A stretch of DNA of 64,000 bases from positions 1-64,000 of the forward strand of contig JAQBPB010000036.1 of the NCBI GenBank assembly GCA_028287745.1. Direction: 5' to 3'. The DNA comes from Chloroflexota bacterium. GTDB taxonomy: Bacteria > Chloroflexota > Chloroflexia > Chloroheliales > Chloroheliaceae. A program made the translations under genes and the position numbers. The notes beneath the pieces were generated by a model. That model was given only the letters and a program-made list of their open reading frames with translations. It was not told where the DNA came from and did no database searches. The number at the start of each line of letters is the position of its first letter. Within the stretch, counting starts at the first letter, position 1. Positions 51,080-64,000 of the stretch are shown piece after piece.

Positions 51080-51118
51080 TGTTAAAATAAATTTAATCAG
51101 TTGTTAATTTCCCTTTAG
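51080..51118 (-). promoter_or_regulatory. 11-bp-phased TTAACA array (putative Pho box), ugpB-like gene
   Basis: On the minus strand CTAAAG, TTAACA, TTAAAT and TTAACA follow with exactly 5-bp spacers (plus-strand starts 51113, 51102, 51091, 51080). The pattern equals the PhoP box of Bacillus (TTAACA-like hexamers every 11 bp) and matches the clusters upstream of pstS. Confidence 0.6.
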
Positions 51119-51231
51119 CAACGCTGCAATAAGCTTAGAGTACAGGAGCTTTTAGCAGCATGAGTCTCCGCGTAACCAGTTCTAACTTTACAAGTGGCTT
51201 CTATATCCTTTAAACATGAGGAGAGAACATT

Positions 51232-52857
51232 TTGAAACTGAGTTCCAGATTTCACCGCCTGTCATCACTCACGCTGATGACTTTGATGTTAGCCGCAATG
51301 ATGGCAGCCTGTGGTGATTCCACCGCAACAACTGCCCCGGCCGCAACAACTGCCCCGGCCGCAACGACCGCTGCCAGTGCTAAGACGGCGGCCGCTGCAA
51401 CGACCGCTGCTGCGACCAGTGCGACAACTGTGGCCGCTACGACAGCGGCGGCGACTACCCCCGGAGCTACAACTGCTGGCGCAACCACCGCAGCGGCTAC
51501 AACTGCCGGAGCGACCACCGCAGCGGCGGCTGGCCCCGCAGCTACCGCTACCCCGTTGCCTACGGTTCCCCAGGCGGCCGGTTCTATCAAAGTAACCTTC
51601 TGGTATGGCCTGGGTGCCCCGTTAAACGGAGTAGTCCAGCAAGTTGTAAACAAGTACAACAGCAGCCAGACCAAATATTACATTGAAGCCCTGCAGCAGC
51701 CCGACTATGACGCGACCATCTTGAAGCTGAACTCCAGCCTGGCTGGCGGCTCGCTACCCAATGTTGTCCAGATTTATGATATTGGCACCCAGCGGATGAT
51801 CGACACCAAGAAGATCGTTCCGGTCCAGGATTTAATCGACAAGGAGAAGCTTGATATTGTTGCCGATATTGAACCGGCAGTGGCCCGTTATTACACCGTC
51901 AATAACAAGCTCTACTCGATGCCCTTTAACAGTTCCGCCCCGGTAATGTACTTCGATAAGAACGCCTTCAAGGAAGTTGGCCTGGATACGGAAAAGAAAA
52001 TCTGGACCTATACCGAAATCCTGGATGCCGCCAAGAAATTGACCAAGAAAGATGCCAGCGGCAAGATAACCCGCAGCGGGGTAGACTTCACCCTGTACAG
52101 CTGGATTTTCGAGCAGGAACTGGCTACCCAGGGCGCCACCTTTGTTGACCCGGCCAATGGGCGGGCCGGGCGGGCTAACAAACTGACCTTCAACAATGAC
52201 GCCGGGGTTAACTGGCTGAATTTCTTGAAGAAGTTGCAGGATGACGGCATCGGTCGTAACCTGGGCCGGGACAGCGGTACCACCAATGGCACTACCCGTG
52301 ATGCCAACTTCGTCAAGGGCGAAGCGGCCATTACCTTCAACAGCATTGCCGGTCTGCGCAACTATCTCAACTCGGCCGCGAAAGAAGGCGGCAAAGTGGA
52401 TGTGGGCGTAGCCTACCTGCCTCGCCCGGAAGGGGCCAAAGGCGGCGTGGTCATTGGCGGCGCTTCCCTGTGGATCACCAATACCGGTACGCCCGAACAG
52501 CAGGCCGGGTCGTGGGACTTCCTGAAGTTCACCGCCCAGCCGGAAATCCAGGCCTTCTGGTCTTCCAATACCGGCTACTACCCTATCCGCAAAGCGGCCT
52601 ACGAAGTCCAGGAAATGAAGGATACGCTGGCGAAGTATCCGCAGTTCCAGGTAGCAGTTGACCAGTTGCGGGCGACTGAACCGAGCGTTGCGACCCAGGG
52701 GGCCGTTTTCGGCACCTTCGTTTCGGCTCGCCAGAATATCGAGGCAGCCATGGAACAGTGGATGACCGGTAAAACCACCTCGGCTAAAGCCGCCCTCGAC
52801 GATGCTGCCAGGAAGTCCAATGAAAGTTTGGACGAATACAACTCGACTGTTAAGTAA
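51232..52857 (+). CDS. glycerol-3-phosphate-binding lipoprotein, UgpB-like
   Basis: A family 1 solute-binding protein with a lipoprotein signal (C27 in 'LAAMMAACG'), an Ala/Thr linker (about 30-110) and a mature domain similar to E. coli UgpB, as I remember it: 'PFNSSAPVMYFDKNAFKEVG' against '[20 protein letters not shown]', 'VIGGASLWI' against 'IIGGASLWV', and 'NTGYYPIRKAAYE' against 'KTGYLPITKAAYD'. UgpB captures glycerol-3-phosphate or its diesters for ABC import. No permease or ATPase gene is adjacent, so it must work with components coded elsewhere. TTG start with GAGGAGAG upstream. The phased TTAACA array upstream suggests phosphate control. Confidence 0.87.
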   Translation: MKLSSRFHRLSSLTLMTLMLAAMMAACGDSTATTAPAATTAPAATTAASAKTAAAATTAAATSATTVAATTAAATTPGATTAGATTAAATTAGATTAAAAGPAATATPLPTVPQAAGSIKVTFWYGLGAPLNGVVQQVVNKYNSSQTKYYIEALQQPDYDATILKLNSSLAGGSLPNVVQIYDIGTQRMIDTKKIVPVQDLIDKEKLDIVADIEPAVARYYTVNNKLYSMPFNSSAPVMYFDKNAFKEVGLDTEKKIWTYTEILDAAKKLTKKDASGKITRSGVDFTLYSWIFEQELATQGATFVDPANGRAGRANKLTFNNDAGVNWLNFLKKLQDDGIGRNLGRDSGTTNGTTRDANFVKGEAAITFNSIAGLRNYLNSAAKEGGKVDVGVAYLPRPEGAKGGVVIGGASLWITNTGTPEQQAGSWDFLKFTAQPEIQAFWSSNTGYYPIRKAAYEVQEMKDTLAKYPQFQVAVDQLRATEPSVATQGAVFGTFVSARQNIEAAMEQWMTGKTTSAKAALDDAARKSNESLDEYNSTVK

Positions 52858-58870: not shown

Positions 58871-59188
58871 TTAATCCTGAAGCCAGTTCTCCATTTCCAG
58901 TTCGCCATCGGGCGGGCTGGTTTCAACCCTGGCCCGGCGGTAGGAATACCAGTTCCAGAGTGCTTTCATGGCCTGGTCGCTTATGCCGGCCGAGTGGTGA
59001 ATATGGGAGAGGGCCGGGGTACTGAAATCGGCCTGGTTAATCTGGGCAATCAAACGGCTTATAAATAGCTGGGTGTTTTCGTCAAACTGGTAACCCGGCC
59101 CCCTTTCAAGGATTAGCCCGGCTAGAGGCTGGATGGTCCTGAGTAAAGTTATCGCTTCATAAGAAGTCAACGGTTGAGTCTGGTTCAT
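58871..59188 (-). CDS. small hypothetical protein
   Basis: 105 residues, not recognised. 'SYEAITLLRTIQPLAGLILE' and 'FDENTQLFISRLIAQINQAD' look like amphipathic helices; the end is acidic. I chose ATG 59188 because AAAGGA lies 6-7 bases upstream; the frame stays open another 30 codons without support. No membrane or signal segment. It sits alone between the secreted hydrolase and the pst region. Confidence 0.6.
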   Translation of the reverse strand: MNQTQPLTSYEAITLLRTIQPLAGLILERGPGYQFDENTQLFISRLIAQINQADFSTPALSHIHHSAGISDQAMKALWNWYSYRRARVETSPPDGELEMENWLQD

Positions 59189-59423
59189 ATTGTTTCCTTT
59201 ATTGTTTGCCACCGCTTTGCTGACCATCAAAAGCCTGGTGAAATGCCCAACCGGCCAACTAAGTATTTTTAGCCTCATCCTGGCTGGTGTCCGGTAGCAA
59301 GCGGTTAACCCGGTACTGTTTCACCTGCGCAAAACGGCCGGGGGCAGCCTATCTTTTCCGGCTGCGGCTGCTAAATCTTTCATTATATTTAACCAAACAG
59401 AATTTAAGGGCGAATTATTAAGT

Positions 59424-59451
59424 TGTTAACGGCTTATTAAGAGGTTGTTAG
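59424..59451 (-). promoter_or_regulatory. phased TTAACA cluster 1 upstream of pstS
   Basis: On the minus strand CTAACA, TTAATA and TTAACA with exact 5-bp spacers (plus-strand starts 59446, 59435, 59424). Confidence 0.6.
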
Positions 59452-59530
59452 AATTTGGCCCTTCCGGCGGGGTTAGTCAGGCTGCCGCCTTTAACAACCG
59501 TCACAGTGGCTATAAAAACTCGTCAGGCTG

Positions 59531-59558
59531 TTAATAAGACATTAACTACCCTTTAACA
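59531..59558 (+). promoter_or_regulatory. phased TTAACA cluster 2 upstream of pstS
   Basis: TTAATA (59531), TTAACT (59542) and TTAACA (59553) with exact 5-bp spacers, 11-bp period, in the orientation of pstS. TATTAA follows 20 bp after the last hexamer start. Confidence 0.7.
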
Positions 59559-59749
59559 ATTTGAAAAAGAGCTATTAAAAACCGCCCGGTACTATGTAAC
59601 CAGGAAATATTTAAGGATCACAATACTTCCTGATAGGAGAAGACCCGCTTGAAGGATGTCAACTCGGATAGCGGACATCCTGCCGATAGCGGTTGATCGG
59701 AGGGCTACAAATCCTGGGGAAAGTACAAACAGGCAACCTCCTGGCAGAT

Positions 59750-59766
59750 TTAACAGGTTGTTAACA
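59750..59766 (+). promoter_or_regulatory. phased TTAACA cluster 3 upstream of pstS
   Basis: Two exact TTAACA hexamers (59750 and 59761) separated by 5 bp, about 60 bp before the pstS ATG. Confidence 0.6.
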
Positions 59767-59827
59767 AGAAATTCTGGCAGGAGCCTTCCGAAATAAAATG
59801 AGGACTACCAAAAGGAGAGAGTCTTAA

Positions 59828-61165: not shown

Positions 61166-63328
61166 ATGGCAACCAATTACCAGGCAATAACGCCCTCACC
61201 TGCTCCCACACCCCAGCCTGAGGTTAATTCTAAAATTGGCCGCAACCGGGGCGATAGTATTTTCGTGGGAATTACCGTTGTCTTTGCCTGTCTGATTATT
61301 GGTATTGTTTTGATTTTTGGCCTTCAGTTGGTTGCAGGCAGTTGGGATGCTCTAACCACCACCGGACTGGATTTCTTCACCCGCTTTGAATGGACCATCA
61401 ACGAGCAAGCCGAGCCGCCTGTTTTTATCTTTGGCGCTTTGAATTTTATCTACGGCACCTTATTGGTATCTACTATCGCGGTGGTGCTGGGCGGCACAAT
61501 CAGTCTTGGCGCGGCTATCTTCCTCTCGGAGTACGCCCCGACCTGGCTGCGCGGCCCGCTGGGTGCGACCATCGAACTGCTGGCCGCCGTACCCAGCGTT
61601 ATTTACGGCTTCTGGGGCATACAGGTACTTTCGCCAATTATGGGCGGTTCGGTAGAGCCTTTCCTGCGCGGGGCCCTGGGCTGGCTGCCAATGTTCAACG
61701 ACAAAGTCCTTAATACCGCCACCAATCGAGAGCAAACTCTTTCTTTTACCGGGCGTGACCTTTTAACCGCCGGTCTTATTCTCTCGATAATGATCATACC
61801 CATTGTTACTTCAATCAGCCGGGACGTCATCCGAACCGTACCCGACAGCCAGCGCGAAGGCATGCTGGCGATGGGCGCGACCCGCTGGCAGACCATTACC
61901 AGGGCCGTATTGCCTTATGGTAAGAGCGGCATCGTGGGCGCGTTAATCCTCGGGTTGGGCCGGGCTATCGGTGAAACCGTCGCGATGGTCTTCCTGGTGG
62001 GCGGCGCATCCTCGATTTACGGCCCATCGGCCAGCCTGTTCGCTAAAGGTGAAACCCTGGCTTCCAAAATCAGCACCAGTGTGGGCGATGCCGGGCTGCC
62101 CCAGGCGTTTTCAGCCATTATGGCGCTTGGCCTGGTCCTGTTTGTAATAACGCTGGTAGTTAATCTTGTCGCCCGCCGGTTGGTGACCGGGGCAAGCGCC
62201 AATTCAGCCCGCAATAGCAATAAAAGTAAGCAAACCAGTCCTCAAGCCTTGAGAACAATCACTACCGGGTTTAGACAACTAATTTTCCCATTAACCCTGC
62301 TGGTGCTTTCGCCTTACCTGGGCCTGACCCTGGTGGTGGCGCTGCTGGTTGGCTGGGCCGCTATCCGGTCTTTAAGGGCTTATGAAATCAAGCTGGAAGG
62401 GCAAAACCGCAAACTTCCGGGCTTGCTCGGCTTTATATCACACCCTTCACGGTCTTACAGCTACCGCAAAAAGATTGACCGGGTGATGCGCGTAATGCTT
62501 ATCGGGGCGACTGCCGCCGCGATCATCCCGCTTTTCAGTATCCTGCTTTTCGTTACGGTTAGAGGATTGCCGCAGGTATTTGAGCCGGGTTTCATCTTTA
62601 ATGATGGGCGGCCGGACGTAGCCGGAGAATCTTTAGGTTTAGCCCACGCCATCCTGGGAACCCTGATAATGACCGGCATCGGAGCGGCTATCGGGATACC
62701 GATTGGCCTGATGGCCGGGATTTACCTTTCCGAGTTCGGGCGCGGCCGTTTCGCCGGTCTGGTACGCTTTATGGCCGATATGCTACAGGGTATCCCCAGC
62801 ATTATTGTCGGTATCGTGGTCTACCAGGTAATCGTCCGCAACCGGATTTTTGTCGATACCGGGGCGAATGTCACCGCTCCGCAGACCGGGTGGGCCGGTG
62901 GTATCGCCCTGGCAATAATGATTGTGCCCGTAATTACCCGCACGACCGAGGAAATCCTTAAGCTGGTGCCGGACAGTATCCGGGAAGCCGGGCTGGCCCT
63001 GGGTGTACCAAAATGGAAAGTAACCCTCACAGTTATTCTACCGGCGGCTTTTACCGGGGTCGTGACCGGTATCTTGCTGGGGGTCGCCCGTATCGCCGGA
63101 GAAACCGCGCCTTTGATCTTTACGGCCGGGCTGCTTAATTACTTTCCGTCCAGTATCGGCCAGCAAACCCCTGCCCTTACGACTTACATCTTCCAGGCTT
63201 CGCGGGGAGCGGCCCAGAATGAAATCAACCAGTTATGGGGTGCGGCTTTCGTCCTGGTCTTTATGATTTTCGGCCTGACCCTGGCGGTGCGCTTCTTTAC
63301 GCGCAGCCGTCTAAAAGCCAGCCTTTAA
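61166..63328 (+). CDS. fused phosphate permease PstC-PstA
   Basis: Two permeases that are normally separate proteins form one 720-residue chain. Residues about 25-345 match PstC ('GALNFIYGTLLVSTIAVVLG', 'ATIELLAAVPSVIYGFWG', 'SQREGMLAMGATRWQTITRA', 'GLGRAIGETVAMVFLVGG'). Residues about 350-430 hold two hydrophobic helices and a linker. Residues about 440-720 match PstA ('LAHAILGTLIMTGIGAAIG', 'MADMLQGIPSIIVGIVVYQV', 'SIREAGLALGVPKWKVTLTV', 'GVARIAGETAPLIFTAGL'). Both EAA loops for PstB contact are present ('REGMLAMGATRW', 'REAGLALGVPKW'). It is a genuine single frame with no internal stop. Confidence 0.95.
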   Translation: MATNYQAITPSPAPTPQPEVNSKIGRNRGDSIFVGITVVFACLIIGIVLIFGLQLVAGSWDALTTTGLDFFTRFEWTINEQAEPPVFIFGALNFIYGTLLVSTIAVVLGGTISLGAAIFLSEYAPTWLRGPLGATIELLAAVPSVIYGFWGIQVLSPIMGGSVEPFLRGALGWLPMFNDKVLNTATNREQTLSFTGRDLLTAGLILSIMIIPIVTSISRDVIRTVPDSQREGMLAMGATRWQTITRAVLPYGKSGIVGALILGLGRAIGETVAMVFLVGGASSIYGPSASLFAKGETLASKISTSVGDAGLPQAFSAIMALGLVLFVITLVVNLVARRLVTGASANSARNSNKSKQTSPQALRTITTGFRQLIFPLTLLVLSPYLGLTLVVALLVGWAAIRSLRAYEIKLEGQNRKLPGLLGFISHPSRSYSYRKKIDRVMRVMLIGATAAAIIPLFSILLFVTVRGLPQVFEPGFIFNDGRPDVAGESLGLAHAILGTLIMTGIGAAIGIPIGLMAGIYLSEFGRGRFAGLVRFMADMLQGIPSIIVGIVVYQVIVRNRIFVDTGANVTAPQTGWAGGIALAIMIVPVITRTTEEILKLVPDSIREAGLALGVPKWKVTLTVILPAAFTGVVTGILLGVARIAGETAPLIFTAGLLNYFPSSIGQQTPALTTYIFQASRGAAQNEINQLWGAAFVLVFMIFGLTLAVRFFTRSRLKASL

Positions 63329-63349: not shown

Positions 63350-64000
63350 GTGACTATTGTAGAAGAAAAACAAAATCTGGCCCAGGAACCGGCTCCGGTT
63401 AAAGGGGCCAGCCTGAGTGTCGAGAAATTAGACGCTTTCTACGGCCGCCACATGGCAATCAGACAGGTCAGTATCGAGTTTGAAGCCAATAAGATAGCAG
63501 CCCTGATTGGCCCTAGCGGCTGCGGGAAAAGTACCCTTTTGCGCACTCTCAACCGCATGCACGAAACTTTGCCGAAAGCTACCGTCAAAGGGGTGGTCAA
63601 ACTTAACGAGCAAAATATCTACGCGCCGGAGGTGGACCCGGCCCTGATACGACGGCGCATCGGGATGGTCTTTCAAAAGCCCAATCCCTTCCCGGCCCTT
63701 ACCATCTGGGAGAATGTTGTCTCCGGCCTGCAAATTCAGGGCCAGAGCAACAAAAAACAGCTAATGGAAGTCGCTGAAATGAACTTGCGCCGGGCTTTCT
63801 TATGGGACGATGTGAAAGATAAGCTCGATGAACCGGGCACTTCGCTTTCGGGCGGGCAGCAGCAGCGGTTGTGCATCGCCCGGACCATCGCGATTGAGCC
63901 GGAAGTTATCCTGATGGACGAACCTTGCAGCGCCCTAGACCCAATTTCGACTATCAAGATCGAAGAGCTCATGCTCGAACTTAAGAAACGCTTCACGATT
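63350..64000 (+). CDS. pstB: phosphate ABC transporter ATP-binding protein, partial
   Basis: The reading frame starts with GTG 63350 (GAAGGAT upstream) and stays open to the end of the window, 217 codons. PstB powers phosphate import. Seen: Walker A '[20 protein letters not shown]', '[20 protein letters not shown]' (Q-loop), signature '[20 protein letters not shown]' and Walker B '[20 protein letters not shown]'. 'FQKPNPFP' and '[12 protein letters not shown]' are specific to PstB. It lies 21 bp after pstCA, so it is in the same operon; phoU would be expected next. Confidence 0.97.

Follow-up and report, generated by a model that had tools for sequence, protein, structure and literature searches.

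A probable PHO box of tandem 11-bp repeats upstream of the pst operon in a Chloroflexota genome

The DNA upstream of pstS in the window, that is, the 64,000-nucleotide stretch analyzed here as part of contig C48 of a 6.34-Mb genome, very probably contains a PHO box, a tandem 11-bp TTAAC(A/C) operator for a predicted activator of the PhoB/PhoP type (OmpR family). The functional core appears to be mainly the second of three hexamer clusters, extended to four or five units, together with a -10 element at a fixed distance. Our results support the original prediction of a Pho operator at this place, as such boxes lie before pst in all five genomes of the family and, among the phylum's other families, in the majority of 95 upstream regions.

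Hexamer clusters and promoter upstream of pstS

The original prediction described three clusters of TTAACA-like hexamers before pstS. When we checked the sequence, the hexamers were found at every start given, in the 11-bp phase that had been proposed, but cluster 1 reads on the minus strand and cluster 2 is longer than described, with four to five units. With an internal Met at 59188 as the start of the divergent ORF, the 640-bp gene-free region said to hold them measures about 639 bp; with a start at 59278 it measures 549 bp. The features of the locus are as follows.

58871..59278, minus strand: small divergent ORF, present also at the syntenic locus of a relative (G001)
59424..59451, minus strand: cluster 1, starts 59424/59435/59446, CTAACA-N5-TTAATA-N5-TTAACA as read on this strand
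59529..59539, plus strand: one more unit upstream of the box, TGTTAATA AGA, which keeps the 11-bp register and corresponds to the first hexamer of cluster 2
59540..59583, plus strand: pstS PHO box, four 11-bp units CATTAACT ACC CTTTAACA ATT TGAAAAAG AGC TATTAAAA ACC
59590..59595, plus strand: predicted -10 TACTAT, 6 nt past the 44-bp box, the offset of the phylum-wide -10
59750..59766, plus strand: cluster 3, TTAACA twice (starts 59750/59761), TTAACAGGTTGTTAACA, a dimer about 61 bp 5' of the pstS start codon
59828..61045, plus strand: pstS (TIGR00975, 285 bits, above the 205-bit cut-off)
61166..63328, plus strand: fused pstC-pstA permease of 720 aa, assigned from sequence and position
63350..64000, continuing beyond the window, plus strand: pstB

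Past pstB, C48:64228-65932 holds a second pstB-like gene and phoU (TIGR02135, 177.6 bits, above cut-off). The single-ORF pstC-pstA fusion also occurs in the other family genomes that we examined.

Between 59279 and 59827, there are six 11-bp-spaced pairs of hexamers with at least 5/6 matches to TTAACA on either strand, whereas 2,000 dinucleotide shuffles averaged 0.06 such pairs and never exceeded 2 (P ~0.0005). Other spacings from 6 to 29 gave at most one pair each, except for 22, which is twice 11, with three pairs. Across the entire 64-kb window there are seven pairs at 11 bp, six of which are upstream of pstS.

Cluster 2 consists of TTAATA/TTAACT/TTAACA at 59531/59542/59553 on the plus strand, and it runs on through a degenerate fourth unit, which is the third unit of the 44-bp box, and a fifth in-register unit, TATTAAAA at 59573, to the -10. 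Scored with a profile trained without the host family, the box at 59540-59583 reached 23.1 bits, the second-best site in the window. With the same profile, cluster 1 scored 25.0 bits as a portion of a minus-strand four-unit match at 59399-59442; its letters are TGTTAA/TATTAA/TGTTAG on the plus strand and TTAACA/TTAATA/CTAACA on the minus strand. The pstS upstream region thereby ranks first in the window with 25.0 and 23.1 bits, followed by 51080-51123 at 22.6 bits and the next unrelated place at 18.8. Cluster 1 might act on the divergent ORF or in both directions, and this ORF, which has no Pfam match, is a possible second target.

Cluster 3 ranked among the best dimers genome-wide in the dimer pattern search, and a check of promoter spacing found no -10 at the usual distance from it. 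We take it to be an accessory dimer in the predicted pst leader. The cluster sits between imperfect inverted-repeat arms, CTCCTGGCAGA / TTCTGGCAGGAG (window 59738-59783). Folding of the predicted leader gave z = -2.56, and a search of Rfam returned no family match for it.

Conservation in the family and across the phylum

Four further genomes from the same family (G001-G004) were compared with that of the window, using a family-level repeat written as TGTTAACA-N3-TGTTAACA that was searched genome-wide. The repeat precedes pstS in 5/5 genomes, and in all four relatives the best match of the genome is the one upstream of pstS. Specifically, it is the sole one-mismatch site in each of G001, G002, and G003 and the sole perfect site in G004, where the perfect dimer is present but no standard array-plus-(-10) accompanies it. 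In the window genome, the pstS site shares first place with a divergent promoter that separates mgtC from an ABC operon resembling 2-aminoethylphosphonate transporters. Background frequency genome-wide, which the original prediction had named as counting against it, was found for loose dimers in the window genome (at most 3 mismatches of 16; 24 versus 24 in a reversed control), but not for the array-plus-(-10) pattern (36 versus 9 reversed, with a ratio to control of ~2.4 to 4.3 in the four relatives). The signal therefore resides in strong dimers and in the array of four units, and the genome-wide frequency of hexamer dimers with 1-3 mismatches, being near that of the control, was dropped as a test.

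At the G001 locus syntenic to the window, phoU stands where the window has the pst operon, which this locus lacks. The DNA upstream of this phoU can still be aligned with that of the window over cluster 1 (TTGTTAACnnCTTATTAA), over cluster 2 (GTTAATAAGACmTTAACTAnnnTTTAAC), and over the predicted -10 (GGTACTAT), which the phoU promoter keeps. GTTAATAAGAC at the extra unit (59529-59539) is kept as well, and much of the remaining upstream DNA has diverged.

Our phylum set comprised 95 pstS upstream regions from families other than the host's. In 31 of them the best dimer exceeded shuffles at P <= 0.05, and self-similarity across the 95 stood out at lags 11 and 22 over neighboring lags, those divisible by three excepted. 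Expectation maximization (EM) recovered TTAAca-N5-TTAAC-N6-tTaA-N5-c.TTaA, that is, four TTAAC(A/C) units 11 bp apart, with an occupancy of ~88%, and it converged on this four-unit motif from wrong hexamers, from wrong periods, and from several random 44-mers. Cross-validation among seeds was non-discriminating, as all seeds reach the same motif with the full data. One EM motif scored above the four-unit array; it is conserved and GC-rich, and we read it as PstS coding sequence. Sites of at least 20 bits occurred in 59/95 upstream regions versus 0/56 downstream flanks, 0/95 shuffles, and 14/95 reverse complements, the last of which must be read with the palindromic nature of TTAA in mind.

The promoter spacing is similarly conserved. 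TANNNT stands exactly 6 nt past the box in 38/94 regions, and no other offset between 0 and 33 has it in more than three, even though EM used the 44-bp box alone, with no -10 in the model. Given this preferred offset, the box seemingly takes the place of a -35. The distance from the last TTAACN hexamer to the -10 is 9 bp, and conservation of the 11-bp phase, of the number of units (four), and of the -10 offset extends to families with a GC content of up to ~0.7. When we applied the same procedure to a control set of 51 mostly betaproteobacterial pstS upstream regions, it yielded TGTCAC-N5-TGTCAC, the known PhoB box. The phylum-wide data set the orientation as TTAACA in the direction of the gene. 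The opposite orientation, in which 8 bp lie between TGTTAA and TATAAT, suits mgtC in three genomes but was rejected, as it fails for pstS.

Predicted targets and regulator

A second PHO box of the window lies upstream of a gene for a substrate-binding protein.

51080..51123, plus strand: PHO box, four units TGTTAAAA TAA ATTTAATC AGT TGTTAATT TCC CTTTAGCA ACG
51130..51135, plus strand: predicted -10 TAAGCT, at the identical 6-nt offset
51232..52857, plus strand: UgpB-like substrate-binding protein of the glycerol-3-phosphate type (PF13416; NF008211 with 215.5 bits, E 9.7e-64, a score under the 411-bit equivalog cut-off)

With 22.6 bits under the profile trained without the host family, this box is the best array site of the window genome and its sole one-mismatch match to the array-plus-(-10) pattern. 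Elsewhere in the family genomes, boxes precede the sole PhoX of the five, their sole full-length PF04185 phosphoesterase, phoU in the relatives, UgpB- and UgpA-like genes, PhnC (over its cut-off), and metallophosphoesterase and PAP2/glycosyltransferase genes, with several of these assignments scoring under equivalog cut-offs. The scan of relatives upstream of pstS, phoU, and phosphatase genes that was proposed with the original prediction therefore did find boxes there. Some boxed genes, and some genes preceded by related 11-bp arrays, are without an obvious phosphorus role, and the spacing in mgtC promoters is other than that of the pstS architecture.

Several related arrangements were also seen. 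A divergent mgtC/lipoprotein promoter with two TTAACA dimers was seen at G000:C69:41062-41237, G001:C36:219141-219293, and G002:C47:13794-13955; on its mgtC side, exactly 8 bp separate TGTTAA from TATAAT in 3/3 genomes, and in G000 the counterpart is a phosphonate-like ABC operon that ends in the lipoprotein. Another TTAACA dimer lies between groEL and a gene with weak DUF4032 similarity (G000:C6:31126 and G001:C48:10281), with no obvious link to phosphate. At G000:C1:9931, a distinct array, TTAAGC..TTAATC..TTCATA..TTCAC with a TAAATT -10, precedes a small gene that has an OmpR-type response regulator after it. Arrays like it are found near response-regulator matches at G001:C44:139795 and G002:C152:7589, and this type may be the box through which another two-component system regulates itself. 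Finally, three genomes apparently have in common a promoter element in which nearly perfect tandem 11-mers (TTAAGTCGAAA / TTAAGCCAAAA type) lead up to TATACT (G000:C71:15261, G002:C9:27133, and G001:C77:652895).

Among the family genomes, no protein matched the PhoB model above the TIGR02154 cut-off, although >100 regions per genome match it, and no phoBR pair adjoins pst in the window genome. An OmpR-type regulator does adjoin pst in several other families of the phylum; similarity to these pst-linked regulators singled out no clear best candidate. The response regulator in the pst operon of G003 was rejected as PhoB since it matches the receiver domain alone; at L127:5908-6558 (G003:C60), a pst operon ends in such a receiver-only protein. 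At L130:5820-6215 (G001:C8), a small gene before phoU in a pst locus resembles, by eye, a lone OmpR-type DNA-binding domain.

Relation to known PHO boxes and interpretation

The PhoP box of Bacillus subtilis is built of TTAACA-like hexamers with 5-bp spacers, and the element described here is like it in hexamer, spacing, and tandem arrangement. Its hexamer seems nearest to this box, and its geometry is nearest to that of SphR. In cyanobacteria, the SphR PHO box is CTTAACCT with 3-bp linkers in at least three copies (PMC1906773). The element shares with it the CTTAACCT-like 8-bp units, the 3-bp linkers, the TTAAC core, the presence of at least three tandem copies, and the position before pst, phosphatase, and nuclease genes, a likeness that concerns the site. 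It departs from the SphR box in having typically four units, a conserved 6-nt gap to the -10, and a weaker final CT. The PhoB box of E. coli and Betaproteobacteria consists of 11-bp direct repeats of CTGTCAT (PMC4415409, PMC1906773), which in E. coli lie 10 bp upstream of the -10 (PMC1906773). Here too there are 11-bp direct repeats in place of the -35, about 10 bp from the -10 and before pstS, but the core is TTAAC in place of TGTCA; an E. coli-type CTGTCAT core was not found, whereas the same EM gave TGTCAC in the mostly betaproteobacterial control. Likewise, the 11-bp units are shared with the Streptomyces PhoP box, GTTCACC (PMC4415409), and some GC-rich members of the phylum set read CGTTCACC (L247), but most genomes of that set have TTAAC and not TTCAC. 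Overall, the element has the 11-bp tandem direct repeats of a PHO box, lies upstream of pst and other phosphorus-acquisition genes, and replaces the -35 at about 10 bp from the -10 in 38/94 phylum sites and in the window. The operator is thus of a known kind, and in the open-access full texts searched we came across no account of a PHO box from this phylum.

By analogy with known systems, from which we take the identity of the regulator, its binding and phosphorylation, and activation over repression, the operator would work as follows. When phosphate is scarce, a phosphorylated response regulator of the PhoB/PhoP type would bind the repeats head-to-tail, probably as two dimers on the four units. 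It would occupy the -35 position and recruit RNA polymerase, and transcription of pstS-pstCA-pstB-pstB2-phoU would begin near 59602.

An argument can be made that the repeats are read by a different OmpR-family regulator, one for general nutrient or envelope stress whose targets merely include pst and ugp. Direct repeats of 11 bp are typical of the whole OmpR family, the genomes hold >100 regions that match the PhoB model, and related arrays are also seen in front of other genes, a response-regulator locus among them. Yet in five genomes the strongest sites are those upstream of pstS, and phosphorus acquisition dominates the annotated targets, which makes such a regulator improbable. Still harder to credit is that AT-rich promoter DNA or low complexity gave rise to the repeats as a by-product, with no operator involved. 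TTAA-rich promoters are common, and loose dimers were at control frequency in the window genome; nevertheless, dinucleotide shuffles did not reproduce the repeats, whose phase, unit number, and -10 offset are conserved across families with GC up to ~0.7.

For cluster 3, a separate function in repression or in a structured leader of the pst mRNA, and not in activation, is unlikely but carries more weight than either of these. The lack of a -10 at the usual distance, the flanking inverted-repeat arms, and the leader z of -2.56 favor it, while the lack of an Rfam match and the place of the cluster among the genome's best direct-repeat dimers do not.

Reading the element as a PHO box, we can tentatively suggest that a stereotyped four-unit operator, with room for two dimers and rigid spacing to the -10, is the ancestral phosphate switch of the phylum. 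Some lineages might have extended it to mgtC, a C39-peptidase-like lipoprotein, a DUF4032-like gene, and PAP2/glycosyltransferase genes, possibly with an orphan regulator in place of a canonical PhoBR pair. More generally, a defined operator with fixed spacing makes the phosphate regulon readable from the genomes of a large and mostly uncultured group. The ugpB-like gene of this window is among the targets it predicts, and it offers a DNA bait for the regulator among >100 candidates.
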